Assembly: GCF_024713945.1 (NCBI RefSeq)
Contig: NC_134677.1
Coordinates: forward strand, 7,319,001-7,383,000
Reading direction: 5' to 3'
Source of the DNA: Dermatophagoides farinae
Lineage: Eukaryota > Arthropoda > Arachnida > Sarcoptiformes > Pyroglyphidae
Length of the DNA: 64,000 nt
Below, one piece after another: positions 1 to 12,900 of the stretch. A program made the position numbers and the translations under genes. How positions within the stretch are numbered: the stretch's first letter is position 1; the number at the start of each line of letters is the position of its first letter. A model generated the notes under the pieces. It was given only the letters and a program-made list of their open reading frames with translations. It was not told where the DNA came from and searched no databases.

Positions 1-3000
1 CAACCAAATCAAAAAGGAACAAAGTTTGTCGTGGATGAAATTACTGGTGAAGTCAAGACTAATAAAGTTTTCGATCGAGAAGGAGATGATGGTCGTTTTG
101 TTTCGGTCACGGTTAAAGCTACCGATCGTGGCTCCCCTCCATTGGAAGGTGTTTGCTCTTTCAAGGTAAGCTCATATGAATTTTATAATCATATTTTGAC
201 AAATGTTTTCGTTTTATTTTAGGTCGAAATCACCGATATTAATGACAATCCACCTTTGTTTGATCGACAAGAGTACAAAGAATATGTTCGTCAGGATACA
301 GCATTGGGTACAAACATTCTTCGTGTTTCAGCTTCTGATGAAGACGCTGATATGAATGGTATCATCACTTATAATCTTACCGCACTAGACCGACATTCCG
401 ATCTGAGTTATTTCAACATAAATCATGAATCTGGTTGGATTAGCTTGGCCCGACCGCTTGACGGTGATCATTACTCGATGCGAGCAATAGCAACCGATAA
501 TGGTTACCCACAACATCGAGCAACGGTGGATATTTCAATCGATGTAGTCGATCGTGCTAACAATCCACCTATTTGGGACAAACCCGAATATGGTCCAATT
601 CGAATCCCTGAAAATGTTCCCATTGGACACAAAGTAATTTCGATCAAGGCTCGTTCTGGAATACCGGACAATCCGACTGTTTTTTACACGTTAATGAAAG
701 GTGGTACCGAACAGACTAACAAAAAAGATACATTCTATGTCATACAAAGCCCCGGCGAAGGTGATGAAATATGGGCCGATATTTGTGTCAATCAACCGCT
801 GGATTATGAACGAATCAATCAATACAATTTAACCGTACGAGTACAAAACAATGGAGTTCAACAACTTGGATCCGAAGCTACTGTTCATATTTATCTAATG
901 GATGTCAACGATGAAATTCCTTTGTTCATAGAAAAAGAACAGGAAACTGTTCTTGAAGGTATGCCACCTGGAACCAAAGTCACACAAGTTGAAGCAATCG
1001 ATAAAGATGGCACACCTCCGTTCAATAAAGTTTACTATTCGATTATGCCAAAAGGCTCTGAAAGTAATCCACCATTCAAAATTGACCGCGAAACTGGCGA
1101 AATCTTCACCAACATGGAATTTGATCGTGAAGAAAAACAAGCATATGCTATTCTTGTTAAAGCTGAAGATGGTGCACCGTCAGCTCGACCAAACATGAAA
1201 AACAATGAACCAAATTATGGTAAATCATGAAAGTTGATTTGACTCAATCTAATATTGTCTTTTTTTATAGTTACCAAATATATTCGTATTGCCATTGGTG
1301 ACAAAAACGATAATCCACCATATTTTGATCAAGCTCTTTATGATGCTGAAGTGAATGAAGATGAAGATATTCATCATACGGTCATCACTGTTACTGCCAA
1401 AGACAAAGATGAATGTAATGTTGTCATGTGCTTTGATACATAAATCTTTAATTTTTTTTTCTTTCTCCATGTGATTATTTAGCTTCAAAGATTCGATATG
1501 AAATTACTCGTGGTAATCATGGTGGCGCTTTTGCAGTGAAAAATGAAACTGGTGCCATTTATGTTGCTGGTCCATTAGATTATGAATCGCGAAAGAGGTT
1601 TGCTTCATTTTTTCCATTTATTTTCTTTTTCTTTCTTTTTGTTTTCCATTCTTTTTTTTCGGTTATGCAATTTGCAAATTTTACGTTAATTTTAGAATAG
1701 AAAAGATGTTTTTTTCTTTTCAATAATTACAATAATATTTATTATTCTGAAAAATATATATACTGTATATAGTACAAACTACGTTTGGTTGCATCAGATA
1801 ATCTCAATGAAAATTTCACTCACGTAGTCATCCATGTAAATGATGTCAACGATAATCCACCGATATTCGATCGGCCAACATATGAAACACAGATCACCGA
1901 AGAGGATGATCGAATGCTACCTAAACGAGTGTTACAGGTTTAAATAAATTCAAATTGAATCATTATTAAATAAGTGTAAATTATCACCAATGGTTGGTTA
2001 GCGATTATGTATGAAATTTTGCAAATTGCCCCTCTTTTTTTCCTTTGTTTTTCCTGATTTTTGTTTTTAATAGGAAAATTATTCAATTTTTTGTTTCATT
2101 TTTTTTCATCCCCTGATGATTGTAGTATAACCTGACCTTAGTCGCATCGGATACATTGCACGAAAATTCTACCCAAGTCCGTTTATTCATAAAAGACATC
2201 AATGATTTACCACCCAAATTTGAAAAGAGCTCCTATGAAACCACAATTCTTGAAGAAGATGATCAAGATTTACCCAAAATGATTCTTAAGGTAAAAATTT
2301 GGACCCACTTAGTTTTGACCGACTTTTTTTTGTTTTTATTGTTGAATAACACGCTAACCATTTATTGATGGATTGACACTTGAGAATTATTTTTCATTGA
2401 TTGTTCAAGAAAATTGATTAATAAACAATGTTTTTTAATTTTAGGTCACTGCAACGGATGGTGATCGAGATCGTCCTCAAGCCATTGTATATTTTTTGAC
2501 TGGCCAAGGTATCGATGACAAGAATCCTCGTAACAGCAAATTCTCTATAAATTCAACAACTGGTGAAATCTACGTGCTAAAACCGCTGGATCGTGATTTA
2601 CCAACTGGTCGTTCACAATGGCGTTTTACTGTATTCGCAGAAGATGAAGGTGGTAACGGTTTAGTCGGTTATGCTGATGTGTTAGTCAACTTACGAGACA
2701 TTAATGATAATGCTCCATTCTTTCCACAATCACGATATGAAGGCAACGTTACCGAAAATGGCACCGCTGATATGACAGTTATGACCATGACTGCTGTCGA
2801 TTATGATGATCCTAATGAAGGTTCAAACGCTCGACTTAAATATGCTATTGAACAAAATCCTGTTAACGAACGTGGAGAATTAATTTTTAAAATTGATGAA
2901 GATACCGGTACAATCTCGACTTTGGTTTGTTGTTTGGATCGTGAACAAAATCCGGAATATGTAATAAAAGTGGTCGCTACTGATGGTGGTGGACTGAAAG

Positions 3001-6000
3001 GTACAGGTTCGGCTACGATAAAAATACGTGACATCAATGATATGCCCCCTGAGTTTACCAAAAAAGAATGGAGTGTAGAAGTTGATGAAACTGATGGTGA
3101 AATGCTGCCAGAAAATCCTATCCTCGTAGTTTCTGTCAACGATCAAGATTTACTCGAGACCAATCGATTTAGTTATCGAGTTTTGGAAAATTCAGTTGGT
3201 GCTGACAAATTTACAATGGTTACCAATTCTGATGGTACTGGTTCGTTGAAAGTGGCGAAACCACTCGACTATGAAGATTATCAACAGCGTTATGGCTTCA
3301 ATATAACCATACAAGTTAGTGATAGTGGTGAAAGCTCTGAATCGTATCATGTTGATTATGCCAAAGTTTACATCCGACTTCGTGATATTAATGATAATAA
3401 GCCTGAATTCAAAGAAACAAATTTAGATGTAACTGTGCAAGAAGATGCTAATATAGGCACTCCATTAGCAACATTTGTTGCTCATGATGCTGATCAAGGT
3501 GGAAAATCACGTGTCAGCTATGCCATTGATCGATCATCTGATAAAAAGCGTCAATTTACTATCGGACAAGATGGTGTGGTCAAAACACAACGTATGTTAG
3601 ATCGTGAAGATACTCCACGTCATCATGTTAAAATTTTGGCCATCGATGATGGTATCCCGGCCCGTACAGCTACAACTACATTGACAGTTATTGTCGTTGA
3701 CGTTAATGATAATGCGCCTAGATTTCTCAAAGATTATCGACCAGTCATCATGGAACATCAAGGGCCAACTAAAGTTGAAGAAATTCTTGCTACAGATGAT
3801 GATGATCGTTCCAGAAATAATGGCCCTCCGTTCACATTCCGTCTATCGAAAGATGCTTCCGATACGATCAAAGAATTTTTCGATGTTCATCAAGATCATA
3901 AAGGTGCCAATGGTGATGGTATGGCTATCGTAACTTCGAAAAAAGAATTTGATCGTGAAATTCAAAAAGAATATCTGGTTCCGATCGTCATTAAAGATAG
4001 TGGCTATCCATCAAAATCAGGAACATCTACATTAACTGTAATCATCGGTGATATCAACGATAATCGTATGTATCCTGGAAGCAAAAACATCTTCGTATAC
4101 AACTTTCTTGGACAATCACCTCCAACACCGATTGGTAGAGTTCATGTGGAAGATCTTGATGATTGGGATTTGCCAGATAAATCATTCATCTGGGATGGTG
4201 GTGTTGCTCATCCATTGTTTGATTTGAATACTGACGATGGCATGATAACAATGAAAAATGTAACCAATGGTGAATACTTTCTACGATTTAATGTTCATGA
4301 TCGTAAACATACACAAAATGTCCCGGCCAACGTTACTGTTGTTGTTCGTGAATTGCCCGAAGAAGCTGTTTATAATTCTGGTTCAATTCGTGTTAGTGGA
4401 ATCACTGCTGAAGATTTTATTCGAGTTTGGTTTCCACACAAACAAAAACAGGAGAAAAGTAAATATGAAAAATTCAAGGATGTATTGGCCCGTATTCTGA
4501 AAGTACAACGCGAAAACCTAGATGTATTCAGTGTGATAACCAGATCCGAAAGGCCTCCAATCACTGACATTCGATTTTCAGCTCATGGATCTCCTTACCT
4601 AAAATCTGTATTTTTGGATGGTGCAGTTACATTGAATCGAAAAGTTATTGAACATCAAGTTGGCATCAATATTACCATGGTTGGAATCGATGAATGTTTG
4701 GTGGAAAATATAAATTGTGAAGGAGCAAGCTGTACCAACGTACTTGAAATCTATCCACAACCAATATTTGTCAATGCTAATCGTACATCTTTTGTTGGCG
4801 TTAATGTTGGTGTCCGTCCCAAATGTTCCTGTGGTCCAAGGGATTTCGATGAAACCGAAACATGTCGTAAAATGCCACCCCATTGTTTAAATGGTGGTCG
4901 TTGTACTGATTCATTGGTTGGAGCATTATGTACCTGTCCTCGAGGATATTCCGGTCCACGTTGCGAAATGCCTTCACGTACTTTCCACGGCGATGGTTGG
5001 GCATGGTATCCTCCATTGCAAGTTTGTTCAGATTCTCATCTTTCCATCGAATTTATGACCCGAACACCTAGTGGTTTGCTTTTCTACAATGGTCCAATGG
5101 GCGAGCCAATCGAAGGCGAATATAAAATAACTGATTTCATCTCTCTAGAACTTCAACGTGGTAATCCAAGACTGCTTATTGATTTTGGATCTGGTACAGC
5201 CGAGTTAACTGTTCATCCGATTGGTGATTTACATGATGGTGAATGGCATCGTATAGATATTTTCTGGACGAAAGAAACAGCTCGAATCCTAGTTGACAAC
5301 TGTGCTGGTATTCGATTCAATGACGATGATTTAATGAGAGTAGATCGTTCTCGATGTGAAAATATTACACAAATTGTTGGATTTAATGAATTTCTCAATG
5401 TAAATAGTCCTTTGCAAGTTGGCGGTCTATATCAGAAACTTTCATCGGCAGGCATATCGCCCTTATTGGCCAATGCTAACTACTTTAATCTTCCCACTAA
5501 GATCGGCTTCAACGGATGCATCAGAAATTTGATTCATAACAGTGTTATGTATGATCTTGGTTCTCCTGGTTCGTATTCTAATTCAGAACCTGGATGTCAA
5601 ATTTCGGAAGAATTGTGTAAAGCAAATTCAATTTATGGTCGATGTTCTAACGGTGAATGTGTGGCCAGCTTCAATTCTGCCCGATGTTTATGTGAACCTG
5701 GTTGGACTGGACCTAACTGTGATCGTGAAACAATGTCGAAGATGTTCCAGACTAACAGTTATATCAAATATGCCATTTCTTTTGATCCGGATCCTTATCG
5801 AAATGAAATTCAACTACAATTCCGAACACGACAAAAGAATGGCGAACTATTTCGAGTAGCCAGCAAACATTATCGTGAATATTGGATCCTAGAAATTAAA
5901 GACAAAAAATTACGATTCCGTTTCAATCTGAATAATCTTGAAGAACGTGAACTATGGTTGCCATTCGTTTCTGTCAGTGATGGTCAATGGCATACCGTCA

Positions 6001-7982
6001 AAGTTCAACGATATGGTTCTACTGCTTCAATCGTATTGGATGGTGGTGGAGGTCGAAGATCTAATGAAATTACCGAATATGAAGGATTACATCAATTGTT
6101 GTTGGTTGACAAACAAAACGTTATGGCTGGTGGATTTGCCCAAATTGTCGGCCCATCTCAATATATTGTTGATTTTGATTATGTTGAAGGTACGATTAAT
6201 GTCTATTTTTTAAATTTTTTATAACTTATCCTTAATTTAATATTATTTAGGCTGTATGGCTGACATTCGTTTGGACGGTCGACAATTGCCCATGGAAAAT
6301 GGATCGGAAAATGCTTTTGTTGTTGAGGCTCGAAACATAATTACTGGTTGTCCTTCTAATAATCCATGTGAAGGAATACATTGCAATCATCCATTCGAAT
6401 GTATAGATCTCTGGAATTTGCATGAATGCAGGTATGTCGAACTTTTGTGATCAAACCATTATAACCCAAATTGTTCATCTTGATTAATTCATATCGATTT
6501 CTCTGTTATTACTATTTTAAATCTTTTCACTGTTTTAACTTTCAATTTCCAACCTTTCTATTGTTTTCTGCTAACCACTTCACTGTCTTGTCTACAAATG
6601 AAAGATGTCCACTTGGATTCAGAGCCACTGGAGACGGAAAGAATTGTACTGATCTTAATGAATGTTATCCAATTAATCCTTGCCTTAATGGTGGAACGTG
6701 TATGAATCTACCAGACGGCCGAGGATTCCACTGTACATGTTTGCCTCATTTCTCCGGCCAATATTGTAATGCTCTGCGTGTCGGCAAAGAGCTTCAATTG
6801 AGCAATTCTGCATTGATTATCATACTTATATTGGCCTTTAATTTTATTAGTACGTTTCATTTTATTATTCATTTATTCGATCTCCGAATTTTCCGGATCT
6901 CCATAGCAGTGTCTGTGCGTCGTTTCTTCATTTTCCTTTTCTCATTTCCTATTCGTTTCTCAATGTTTCACTGTTCACTTTATACGAATTATGATCATCA
7001 ATCACTATAATCTATTTATACTTTCCGACAATTAGTTGCCCCACTGGATTTCAAATGACGGCAAATCGTCTTAGTTGTGAAGATAGAAATGAATGTGAAT
7101 GGCACCCTTGTGGTCGTGGCGGTATTTGTTATAATATTCCTCGTGGCGGTGGATATTCTTGTGAATGTCAATTAGAAGGATTCCGTTGTGATAATTGTAG
7201 CTGCGAAGAAGGACCCTTATTACGTCGAGGCAAAGCAGCTGTTGGATTAGGAATGGATGCTTTGCTCATAATTCTCCTTTGTGTCATCTTTTATTCAAGT
7301 AAGATTCTGAATTCATAATCATCAAACGACTATCGTTCACTGCTATTGGGATCAATCATCGGGGATTGTTTTTTTCCTTGTTATTCATTCAACGAGCTTC
7401 AATTAATTTAATTTTATTAATTTCATTTACAGTTTTGATTGCTGCCTTTTTGATTTACAAACGAAGTAAACGACCTCATCAAAAATTTGGACACGACGTC
7501 GATGATGACGTTCGTGAGAATATCATCAGCTATGATGACGAAGGCGGTGGAGAGGATGATATGAATGCCTATGACATAACTCCACTTCGTATACCGATTG
7601 ATCCCACTGGTGCAACGATACCGGGCAAACCAACGATGATCAAAGATATGCGTCATCGCCAATGTAAGTTTTTTTTATCATACGCAAATACATTAAACAT
7701 TTGAACATTATCGATGTTTTAGTCCCACCTGATGGCCATCCAGATGTTGGAGAATTGATACGAGAAAATCTTGAAAAAGCAGACACTGACCCAAACGCAC
7801 CTCCATTTGATGATCTACGTAACTATGCATACGAAGGTTGTGGCAGTACAGCTGGTTCTCTAAGTTCATTAGCATCAGCTATGGATGATAATGAACAGGA
7901 TTTTGACTATCTGAATCGTTGGGGACCAAGGTTCCAGAATTTGGCCGTCATGTATGTGCAAGGAGAAAGCGAGGAAGAATAA
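1..7982 (+). CDS. CadN: N-cadherin (classical type III cadherin), 3' part of gene
   Basis: Calcium-dependent homophilic adhesion receptor; the 5' end lies outside the window. Exons by splice signals and phase: <1-165, 223-1219, 1271-1414, 1483-about 1597, then 1773-1937 or 2126-2290, 2445-6189, 6251-6431, then 6605-6849 or 7036-7298, 7433-7663, 7723-7982 (stop TAA). About 2,080 residues are present. Around eleven cadherin-repeat boundaries are visible (DINDN, DVNDN, DKNDN, DINDM and similar calcium motifs). They are followed by the non-classical region (about 4080-4850), an EGF domain (CLNGGRC, about 4880), a laminin-G domain, an EGF domain, a second laminin-G domain, membrane-proximal EGF domains and a single membrane helix. 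The cytoplasmic tail ends in the catenin-binding region ([11 protein letters not shown], then [10 protein letters not shown]). This layout matches Drosophila CadN. The 3' UTR is probably long; the first AATAAA I see is at 9357-9362. One exon junction shows a one-base phase problem, listed in the findings. Confidence 0.95.
1773..1937 (+). other. CadN: CadN alternative cadherin-repeat exon, copy a
   Basis: 165 bases, 55 codons, phase 0 at both ends, bounded by tatatag and gtttaa. It encodes the end of one cadherin repeat (YKLRLVASD), a DVNDNPP linker and the start of the next repeat (EEDD, LPKRVLQ). Exon 2445 ([11 protein letters not shown]) continues it in frame. Exon 2126-2290 encodes the same segment at identical length, so the two should be mutually exclusive. 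Confidence 0.85.
2126..2290 (+). other. CadN: CadN alternative cadherin-repeat exon, copy b
   Basis: 165 bases, 55 codons, phase 0, acceptor gattgtag and donor gtaaaa. It encodes YNLTLVASD, a DINDLPP linker and [11 protein letters not shown], collinear with copy a; by hand about 30 of 55 residues are identical. Splicing both copies in series would duplicate half a repeat and break the cadherin fold. In copy b the linker reads DINDL instead of DVNDN, so calcium binding at this inter-repeat junction may differ. Confidence 0.85.
6605..6849 (+). other. CadN: CadN alternative EGF plus transmembrane exon, copy a
   Basis: 245 bases, entering with one base to complete a codon and leaving after one base (donor gtacgt). 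It encodes [15 protein letters not shown], a calcium-binding-type EGF ([17 protein letters not shown]) and the first half of a membrane helix ([14 protein letters not shown]), completed by [11 protein letters not shown] in exon 7433. It starts and ends in the same phase as the copy at 7036, which encodes the same layout. Confidence 0.85.
7036..7298 (+). other. CadN: CadN alternative EGF plus transmembrane exon, copy b
   Basis: 263 bases with the same entry and exit phases as copy a (donor gtaaga); six codons longer. It encodes [15 protein letters not shown], an EGF ([16 protein letters not shown]) and the helix start [17 protein letters not shown]. It also has an extra cysteine-rich stretch ([16 protein letters not shown]) just outside the membrane that copy a lacks. 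Drosophila CadN has an equivalent exon pair (18a/18b) around the membrane segment. Confidence 0.85.
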
Positions 7983-9936
7983 ACCATGTAAAAAACGAAT
8001 GCAATAGTTAGAAATCAAAAACCAAAAAAAAAAATTTGTGAATAATCATCCAATCTTAGCTGGTAAAAAAAAAATCAAATCAAAATTCAATTACCAGTAT
8101 CACAGACGAATCAAAATTTACATCTCATTCTGACGATCATTATATCAAAATTTGAATTTATGTTTGCTCAATATATACAAATTAATGATCCATAATCAAC
8201 AACAATCGTGAAAACTGTGTGGACTAATATCTTTTTGGATCGACTTTTATAATCTCTTTTGATCTCAACAAAAATTATTGTTTCGGATTTTGATTGATGT
8301 CGTGACAAAAACTTCAACTTTACAAACACATTTCTTTATATAACTACCATACGGATCATTGGTCATATTCATTCGAACGACATTCCAATTGATTCTACAT
8401 TTTTCTAAAAAAAAAAAAATTTAGTATTCATTTTTATATAATTTTTCTCTCATTTTCATTGTTTATAACAAATTGATCTTTTTTTTCTATCAACTTCATT
8501 ATTATCATTGATGTAAATGTAAATGTGCCAACACCATTGTCGACACACCTGATTCATTGAACAGAAAAATAACGTCTGAACCAGTATTTCACACACACAC
8601 ACACACACAAACACAAAATAATCACAATTAATAATTGTCAGCTTATTTCTTATATATGTAACATAAATTGATAATAATCATATACTTGCTTATTATTATT
8701 CTTATTTTTCAGTGATATTCTTGTTATATATTTTAGTAGTGTTTTTTTTTTCTCTCTCTCTTTCTCTTTCTCACTACACCCTGCAGCCAAATTCATTTTT
8801 TATCAACAACATCGACATTCGAATCATTTTTACAACGGTGCTCTATATGTGTGTACACTCCATGTTTTCTAATATTACATAATATGTACGAAATTGACTA
8901 TAATGGAAAAAAAACTGCCAAACATTGTTATTTATCACATCATCATCATTGATTCCATAATTACTTATATATTATATATATATACATAGTTTATAGTTCA
9001 AAAAAAACACACACAAACACTCGCATCATCATTATCATCATCATCAGCATTAATCGCGATTGACCATTTGTAATGGCAATACGATTTTATCAAAGAAAAT
9101 CTTTTTAAATTTTTTTTTTACATATATATTTCGAAAAGAAAATCCGGAAAGGAACTAGTCATAACAGTCGTGTTTTCTTTCTTTCATTTTCCTTTTTTTT
9201 CTGATAATTGACAAATTTAAACACACACACACACACACACACACGCACGTACTCACATATATATATATACACTAACCACAAATAATTTTTTTTTTCAAAC
9301 CTTAAAAGACAAACATCCTGTGGCAAAAAAAAAAAAAAAAAAGATGAATCCAAATCAATAAATACTTTTGATTGATTTTTTTTTCTTGTATATAACCAAT
9401 AATAATAATAATCATCATCATTATCATGATTAAAATTAATTTATTAAAAAGTAAATAATTTGTTTGTTTATTATCATTATATTAAAATTGATGGAATAAT
9501 TTATGCATTTTCATTCGATAGCGAAATCAGAATCTACACAATAAAATTTCAACAACAACAAAAAAACCACACACTCAAGTAAATGTTGGATGTTTGCTTT
9601 TTTTTGGATGAAAGCTTTTGCATTGTCGTTACCTATGTATGTCAACGGTGTTGTATCCTGTTTGTCATTCATCTTAATCGATTTAGCCGTATCCAAGATT
9701 TTTAATTTTTTTTTTTTTTTTTTTGGTTTTTTTTCTCTCTGATTCATTCGATGACAACAATATTTGATTTAACAATTAATATTAGTTGACTTATTATTGT
9801 ATTATTAGTGTTGGAAATTGGTTAGATGCAAAAAATTCGAATTCTTTTCATTTTCGACAATATCAAAACATATTTAAACACAATAAATATCTAGTCGTTA
9901 ATCGTAGTCATCATTGGCATTATCTATGTATTGATC
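7983..9936. other. CadN 3' UTR and intergenic spacer
   Basis: No convincing coding exon. A/T homopolymers, CA microsatellites (8590-8608, 9220-9244) and CAT runs. AATAAA at 9357-9362 is a candidate CadN poly(A) signal; another AATAAA lies near 9881, just before the ABCA start codon. Confidence 0.6.
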
Positions 9937-12900
9937 ATGTTGCCTAAGAAACAACCAGTAAATGATGAAATTGTATCAAATAATGAAATTGTTTCCTCTT
10001 CTTCCTCCTCCTCAGCATCAGCGTCATCATCATCATCATCAGAATTTGATCCAAATTTCATCGAAAAACTTGCCATTTGCTTGTTTAATAACCCGGTGAT
10101 TTTGTTATTATGGAAAAATTTTAAAATCAAAAGCCGTCATCCATGTCGATCAATATTCTGGTTGCTAGTACCATGTATTTTCTGCATCATATTAGTCTTG
10201 ATTCAAATGGTAGCCGATCAAGAATTTGTCAAAAACACGACTATATATAACGAACATGGTATTGATGAAGATTTGTCCACAATTGCAATTTCTGATAAAC
10301 AAATTCTATATGCTCCGTTAACTAATGAAACTGAAGAAATCATGGAAATTCTGCACAAAAACATCGTGACCACTGAAATAATTGGATTTCACAATGAATC
10401 CGATCTAATCGCTTATTATGAGAGAAACAACAACAACAAAATTTCTTGTGCAATTGTATTTAATCGAATTAATTATGATGGTGCTGATTTCAAAATTCGT
10501 TTTCCATTCATTCCAAATCAGAATGGTAATAGTGTGTCTCGATTTATCGAATTGACTTGGAAAACATCAAAATACTGGCCACGGCACGTGTTGAGTGGTC
10601 CAAGATCAGCGAACAATAGTTATGGTGGACCACCAGATTATTTCAACAATGGATTTCTGTATATACAACATGAAATCAGCAAAGCAATAGCCATCTATTT
10701 TGATCCTAAAAGTGAAAATTTTTTTGATCAACTTCGTATGTCCATCCAACGATACCCGTTTCCGAAATATCAGAAAAACGATTTTCTCTTTTACATGGAA
10801 ATTGTTTTTCCAATAGTCTTTTTGTTAAGTTTTCTATCCATCTCGATGGAGTTAACCAAAGACATTGTGATGGAGAAAGAATTACGATTGAAAGAAATAA
10901 TGAAAATAATGGGTCTACGCGAATGGATGCATTGGCTATCCTGGTTTATTTATGCTTTTTTATGGCATACTTTATTCGGCATAATCATAACATCGATTCT
11001 CTGTATTCCATTTGGCAAACAAGCTATACTCAAATACAGTGATCCATTTTTAGTGTTCCTATTCATCATGTTTTATGTCGTTTCTGTAATAACGTTTTGT
11101 TTTCTGGTGAGTAGCATACCCAAAATATCAGAAAAGGCTGATTTTGCCGGAACAATCGGTGGTACCATTTACATTCTCTTATTTTTACCATATTATTTTA
11201 TCAACTTTAATTATGAGTAAGTTTCATCAGATTCCAAAATTATCCATCTAATCATAATGTAATTTTAAGCGAAATACCATTTGAATGGCGATTATTCTCA
11301 AGTTTTTTGTTCAACATAAACATGCCATTTGGATTGATGATAATTTCTGAGCTAGAAATTAATCATATCGGTCTTCATTGGAACAACATTTGGGAGCCAA
11401 TAGCACACGATGATCCAATGACATTTGGTTATATATTCATCATGTTTCTAGTGACATCAGTTGTACAATTTATCACTGCTATTTATATTGGAGCCGTATT
11501 TCCAGGAAAATATGGAATGGGCAAACCATGGAATTTTTTTGTCAATTTTTTTTATCCATCAAATGATTACCAAAAAGATGAAGAAAAACCGCTAGATTCT
11601 AATGGAGTTCATATAATAAATTTATATAAATCGTATGATGACCAGAAAACATTTGCCGTTAAAAATTTGACGTTGAATTTGCCACAAAATCGCATCACTG
11701 TTCTATTAGGACATAATGGAGCGGGAAAAACCACTTTGATGTCCATGTTATGTGGTTTAATCATTCCTAGTTGCGGTACAATCCTCATTAATGGAATAAA
11801 TCTCCATGATGATATGGAACGTGTGCGTGAAAATCTTGGAATATGTCCACAATTTGATGTTTTATTTGATCATCTTACTGTTGAAGAACATTTATGGTTT
11901 TATTGCAAATTGAAAAATGTTTGTGAGAAATCTATTTACGAGGAAATTGATTCACTGATTAATAAATTGGATCTAAACTCCAAAAGACGAAATTTGGCTT
12001 CTACGCTGTCCGGTGGTATGAAACGTAAACTTTCGGTATGTCTATTTTATGATTTGGAATTATGTTTGAAAGTTATTTTTTGGTCTATAGGTTGGAATAG
12101 CTCTGGTAGGTGGGTCCAAGTTTGTCTTGTTGGACGAAGCTACATCAGGAATGGATGTTTCAGCTCGTAGATTCCTATGGGATTTCCTAATCAAAGAAAA
12201 AACTAACCGAACAATCCTCTTCTCTACACATTGCATGGAAGAAGCTGATGTCTTAGGAGACAAAATTGCCATTATGCAGCAAGGACAACTCAAATGCTTT
12301 GGATCACCATACCAATTACGTAAAGATTTCAAGCTGGGTCATCTCTTAAAGATTGCAATAACAAGGCAAGCAAATAAGCAAAAAATCATCGATTTGATCA
12401 ATTCACACATCATTGATGCCAACCTGTTGGCTTCAAGCAATAATGAAATGACATTCAGTTTGCCAGAGTGTCAATCTAAAAATTTTGGACCACTATTCTT
12501 GACAATCGAACAGAATAACACTGATCTAGGCATCGATCATTTTGGTATTTCTGTTTCCACAATCGAAGAGGTCTTTTTTCGGTGAGTTTTTTTCCATGTT
12601 TTTAGATTCTTTATTCCAATAATATCATCTTTTTGAATAGGGCCAATCAATTTCAGCTGAATGACATTGATTCAGAACAAAAATATTCACAAGATCTAAT
12701 TGATCGAATGAAACATAATTCATTGGAACATAGCAGTGAACTGGCACATTTGAGGCAAATTTTTCAAAGTCAATTTGTCAAAAAATTACGGTTTCTGCTA
12801 CGAAGTCCTTTTCTTTTAGTTGCACATTTTGTTCTTCCCGCAATCGTTCTTATTATTGGCATTATTAGTGCCATGGGTGTGGCTCATAGCTTGACAAGTT

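Follow-up and report, generated by a model that had tools for sequence, protein, structure and literature searches.

The N-cadherin locus of Dermatophagoides farinae

The window, the whole stretch of DNA analysed here, spans 64 000 nucleotides of the D. farinae genome, and domain searches identified the gene of interest within it as that encoding N-cadherin (CadN). Elsewhere in the genome, a Der f 2 exon is identical to D. farinae Der f 2 (1ahk) at 116 of 117 positions, with a lower score against Der p 2. An open reading frame at 2445–6224 yielded Pfam matches to Cadherin (1.1e-67), Ig_Shg (3.1e-33), Laminin_G_2 (3.6e-40) and EGF (6.3e-9), giving the layout of a type III classical cadherin: cadherin repeats, then an Ig-like domain and EGF and laminin G domains. 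The cytoplasmic domain is that of a classical cadherin, matching PF01049 (1.4e-30) and the E-cadherin of structure 1i7w (5e-31). A large ORF downstream of CadN on the same strand (9895–11220) may encode the membrane portion of a subfamily A ABC transporter, which it resembles. PMC5473995 lists type III cadherins from two mites.

The 3' part of the gene, in which two similar exons lie between shared flanking exons, is organised as follows:

6251–6431, forward strand: constitutive exon 17 equivalent, ending in phase 2, placed by translation, splice borders and fly primer G
6605–6849, forward strand: copy a, with a Cys-rich start, a calcium-type EGF domain and the first half of the membrane helix, placed by its Pfam EGF match, phases and frame
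7036–7298, forward strand: copy b, with a Cys-rich start, an EGF domain and the first half of the membrane helix, placed by alignment with copy a and PDB matches
7433–7663, forward strand: constitutive exon 19 equivalent, with the second half of the membrane helix and the start of the cytoplasmic tail, placed by translation and splice borders
7723–7982, forward strand: last coding exon including the stop codon, matching PF01049 and E-cadherin cytoplasmic structures together with exon 19

Further upstream, the gene carries another pair of similar exons:

1773–1937, forward strand: first copy of the other pair, 13a-like
2126–2290, forward strand: second copy of the other pair (13b)

Both of these copies encode 55 residues in phase 0–0, and a message that included both would keep its frame, which is not the case for the downstream pair. 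The exon before them (window 1590–1605) must end in phase 0 (RKR, then Y), and its GT lies one base early (AAGAG/GTTTGC), reflecting a donor that is non-canonical or an assembly error of one base; a published D. farinae assembly has a reported accuracy of 99.975% (PMC11074847).

Two copies of the membrane exon

Copies a and b are 245 and 263 nt long, respectively, and both are bordered by GT-AG introns. Each takes two bases from exon 6251–6431 (entry phase 2) and leaves one for exon 7433–7663 (exit phase 1), in agreement with the sequence-only reading, which had given the two exons common entry and exit phases. That reading had also ascribed to both a Cys-rich start, an EGF domain and half a membrane helix, a layout borne out by translation, by domain and structure matches and by hydropathy. 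The EGF domain of copy a has a Pfam EGF match at 1.4e-8; that of copy b falls below the Pfam cut-offs and matches the calcium-binding EGF structures of LDLR, Notch and protein S in a PDB search. On this evidence, each copy encodes a calcium-type EGF domain and half of the membrane segment. Both copies had been read as joining exon 7433, which completes the membrane helix: both joins hold the frame and generate a strongly hydrophobic stretch of 19 residues, with mean Kyte–Doolittle values of 3.24 and 3.15.

The proteins encoded by the two copies share 34 of 82 residues by BLASTP (E 3e-14) and 43% identity in a MAFFT alignment. Their alignment score of 136 was equalled by none of 2000 shuffles, and the tails alone (stalk and half helix) were also alike, their score being matched by 5 of 2000 shuffles. 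In alignments to the two remaining EGF domains of the gene, copy a scored 57 (2 of 2000 shuffles as good) and 40 (44 of 2000), and copy b scored 36 (323 of 2000) and 32 (589 of 2000). The similarity of a to b is thus greater than that of either to these domains. When copy b was searched against the genome, it matched its own locus, copy a (E 7e-9) and a single segment of a large protein with many EGF domains.

Copy b retains all eight cysteines of copy a and the DxNEC motif, and has 10 cysteines in total and six additional residues in the alignment. It had been credited with an extra stretch of 16 residues next to the membrane. Most of that stretch aligns with YCNA-LRVGK of copy a, leaving a net gain of six residues and two cysteines. 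We considered a third copy and rejected it, as the three introns of the module (i1 to i3; 173, 186 and 134 nt) are tight and the only close relative of copy b in the genome is copy a.

Comparison with N-cadherin genes of insects and Daphnia

Alternative pairs of exons 7, 13 and 18 have been described in N-cadherin genes of insects and Daphnia (Hsu et al. 2009, PMC2655722), the latter separated from the fly by 430 million years according to the same source; Apis is given there as being without the 13 and 18 alternatives. We placed the fly exon borders at the points where the primers and probes printed in sections 21 and 22 of that paper diverge. The fly 18a and 18b probes share tgcac and then differ, the simplest reading of which is entry in phase 2 after the Cys codon. 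For the exit, we assigned reverse primers L and M to 18a and 18b; they have TACTCGTCTT in common and diverge immediately before it, which, read most simply, sets the exit within the membrane helix in phase 1. Each mite exon is entered in phase 2, at the Cys that follows ECx, and left in phase 1 within the membrane helix, so that both coincide with the fly borders, as closely as the primers allow, given that shared oligonucleotide bases could hide a border a few bases away. Printed Tribolium probes agree with the split of the membrane helix. The flanking exon can also be matched: the fly exon 17 oligonucleotide (primer G) translates to DPFECVDLWNV, which has an 11-residue counterpart in mite exon 6251–6431.

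The parallel with the membrane-exon choice of Drosophila CadN, proposed from the DNA before any of these comparisons, is thus supported by borders and phases consistent with the printed 18a/18b primers. As in 18a/18b of Drosophila, Tribolium, other insects and Daphnia, the mite exons encode an EGF domain and part of the membrane segment of N-cadherin, and form two copies with common flanking exons. The mite pair differs from those systems in its chelicerate host, and its copy b has two more cysteines than its copy a. We regard it as what appears to be a chelicerate example of a module already on record for insects and Daphnia, and as ordinary in kind.

The remaining modules of the mite gene were compared in the same way. 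The end of mite 13a is close to the printed fly 13a oligonucleotides; that of mite 13b does not resemble the fly 13b oligonucleotides (DEGMT, MTNTPFTIMQV). The counterpart of the exon-7 module lies inside the uninterrupted exon 223–1219, with no border, and resembles 7b, for which the fly primer reads KVVSIKASSGI. No 7a-like copy was seen in the mite gene, so the exon-7 choice of insects and Daphnia was not observed here, and among ORFs of at least 45 residues in the 10 kb upstream we saw no further exon pair. Four isoforms had been predicted from the two pairs in view. Since the insect exon-7 choice was not seen, that number holds as the visible maximum.

The main text of PMC2655722 contains none of the words 'Ixodes', 'spider' and 'chelicerate', and PMC5473995 contains neither 'mutually exclusive' nor 'splic'. 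Among the open-licence papers listed, we recognised none that treats this exon choice in a chelicerate. Relatives were also sought in genomic and viral contig sets, which gave 44 and 17 pattern matches, respectively, none of which was confirmed.

Origin of the duplication

Descent of the two copies from the same duplication as fly 18a and 18b was examined with a quartet tree of 88 columns, in which mite a and b were combined with fly 18a and 18b peptides checked against printed primers at their ends only. The tree joining mite with mite was the best of the three (AU 0.84, the others about 0.16 each), and no topology was rejected. Identities hardly differ between pairs: 34/80 for a and b, 30/80 for a and 18a, 31/79 for b and 18a, 26/71 for a and 18b, 26/76 for b and 18b and 29/78 for 18a and 18b.

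An independent duplication of the same exon on the mite side, which the unlike end of mite 13b would also suit in that the neighbouring pair may differ as well, is a real possibility towards which we lean slightly less than halfway, given the short alignment, the fly peptides checked at their ends only and the even identities. It concerns origin and is compatible with the reading of the pair as module 18.

The genome has a second classical cadherin. The one further genome match to the cadherin tail lies on C4, and the exon equivalent to 18 in that gene (L016 8518–9179, minus strand, 662 nt) has the same predicted phases and splits the membrane helix as the mite module 18 does. Unlike the N-cadherin exon, which is present in two copies, it was found once among ORFs of at least 60 residues; it is much longer than the exon 18 copies and, by eye, is without a complete EGF domain. 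A single C4 exon with the same predicted phases fits the duplication of one ancestral exon. Over its first 14 residues it agrees by eye with copy a at eight positions and with copy b at four, so copy a looks the more ancestral of the two. ORFs at L016 2834–3173 resemble what we take to be a fragment of a copia-type reverse transcriptase.

Reading frame and probable mutual exclusion

The lengths of copies a and b are both 2 modulo 3, so inclusion of both or of neither leads to an early stop. Copy a alone and copy b alone give full proteins; a followed by b meets a stop a few codons into copy b, and b followed by a, skipping of both or retention of the a–b intron brings a stop before the cytoplasmic tail. 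Because the others stop early, a single choice is the sole productive outcome among the combinations tried, and mutual exclusion of the two copies is implied by the frame. The reading frame would police exclusivity, with messages containing both or none stopping early and presumably being lost to mRNA decay. Each mRNA would take a or b. The exchange would affect the last EGF domain, the membrane-proximal stalk and the outer half of the helix, and leave the remaining protein constant.

Two other explanations of exclusivity were rejected. Steric exclusion does not suit copies that are 186 nt apart in a gene whose introns inferred elsewhere measure 51–68 nt, and a U12/U2 spliceosome mismatch does not suit a module in which a U12-type donor is absent from all three introns; exclusivity is therefore explained by neither short spacing nor spliceosome mismatch. 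Frame gates and intronic stems have both been described as ways of keeping exons exclusive (PMC6071210).

Could one copy be functional and the other a decaying duplicate, rarely or never spliced in? The divergent EGF domain of copy b, with its two extra cysteines and sub-threshold Pfam score, would fit such a history, as would the predicted stem described below, which would loop out copy b. Against this, copy b retains an open frame, the eight cysteines, DxNEC, GT-AG borders, the phases and a similar helix hydrophobicity at only 43% identity, not all of which a dead exon should have kept; we consider decay very improbable. Inclusion of both exons in series, giving two EGF domains, is scarcely credible: the tandem arrangement with ordinary spacing would permit it, but a plus b shifts the frame as described above, and a protein with two successive half helices is hard to make sense of. 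The pair is most likely well formed and mutually exclusive, and we consider it highly probable that it constitutes the mutually exclusive membrane-exon module 18 of D. farinae N-cadherin, a judgement that covers the exon pair and excludes the stem.

A predicted intron–intron stem around copy b

The introns on either side of copy b can pair with one another:

6850–7035, forward strand: intron i2 between copies a and b, 186 nt, containing the left arm of the stem
6878–6925, forward strand: left arm of the predicted stem, with helices of 10, 6, 9, 2 and 7 bp
7299–7432, forward strand: intron i3 between copy b and exon 19, 134 nt, containing the right arm of the stem
7324–7368, forward strand: right arm of the predicted stem

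Twelve pairings were tried, six between introns and six that involved exons or a portion of an intron. Introns i2 and i3 are complementary over 34 main base pairs at −45.4 kcal/mol, compared with −26.0 ± 4.0 kcal/mol for shuffles, none of which (0/3000) was as strong. The helices are 6878–6887/7359–7368 (10 bp), 6896–6901/7348–7353 (6 bp), 6903–6911/7338–7346 (9 bp), 6914–6915/7334–7335 (2 bp) and 6919–6925/7324–7330 (7 bp), and the four longer ones have pairing probabilities of 0.93–0.98 in a fold of 1051 nt (6400–7450). Among 4253 same-strand stretches of 60 nt in the window, the arms are reciprocal best partners (−44.4; the strongest competitors without overlap reach −35.9 for one arm and −31.9 for the other). 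A mobile-element origin of the arms was rejected, as each matched only itself in a genome search that skips simple repeats and very common words.

Raw energy alone does not single out i2–i3: with the region itself included, 1036 of 5060 stretches of the same geometry and 468 of 2856 GC-matched stretches reach −45.4. A z-score of −4.8 or stronger was reached by 2 of 965 pairs with 24–40% GC (965 of 1406 pairs; 30 shuffles each), and the five top z-score pairs listed are rich in simple repeats, which the stem arms are not. No competing stem was found for copy a, shuffles being at least as strong as i1–i2 in 443 of 500 cases and as i1–i3 in 438 of 500. Mutually incompatible pairings that would spare different exons were not found, i2–i3 being the only one of three intron pairs to exceed its shuffles. 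Around the 13 pair, the best stem (p2–p3) was equalled by 25 of 500 shuffles.

The stem would loop out copy b and draw the copy a donor nearer to the exon 19 acceptor. It would thereby favour copy a, and copy b would need the stem opened. The splice signals of copy a itself are not strong: its acceptor has a U share of 0.35, the lowest among the junctions listed, and its donor (TTA/gtacgt) is not stronger than that of copy b (CAA/gtaaga). In the 6400–7450 fold the splice sites of b are no less open than those of a, so a default use of copy a would have to come from the loop-out itself. Loop-out and bidirectional stem models of exclusive splicing have been described for srp and for Dscam exon 4 in Apis (PMC6071210). 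Like those, the mite stem pairs intron with intron and encloses one exon of a tandem pair; unlike those, it is a single stem, around copy b, with no competitor around copy a. That the stem is meaningful, looping out copy b and favouring copy a, is nearly an even prospect.

Implications

In the fly, 18a and 18b isoforms show graded homophilic interactions according to an earlier study cited in PMC2655722, which itself describes no difference in subcellular localisation between the two and argues that the isoforms are redundant as proteins. Because the cited study reports such an effect for fly 18a/18b, the choice between a and b in the mite is likely, by analogy, to bring a graded change in adhesion.

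Three features deserve to be followed further: the match of the borders, the absence of a visible exon-7 choice and the predicted copy-b stem. We think it unlikely that the full combination holds, in which the choice would have arisen twice at insect-like borders and the mite version would be run by a single copy-b loop-out stem together with the frame gate. The predicted stem makes the manner of the a/b choice concretely and cheaply testable. With the pair in D. farinae, the splice choice would reach a chelicerate, pointing either to an older inheritance or to repeated invention at the same exon. The presence of modules 13 and 18 without a visible exon-7 choice in the mite, and the loss of 13 and 18 in the bee, suggest that the three CadN modules may come and go independently.
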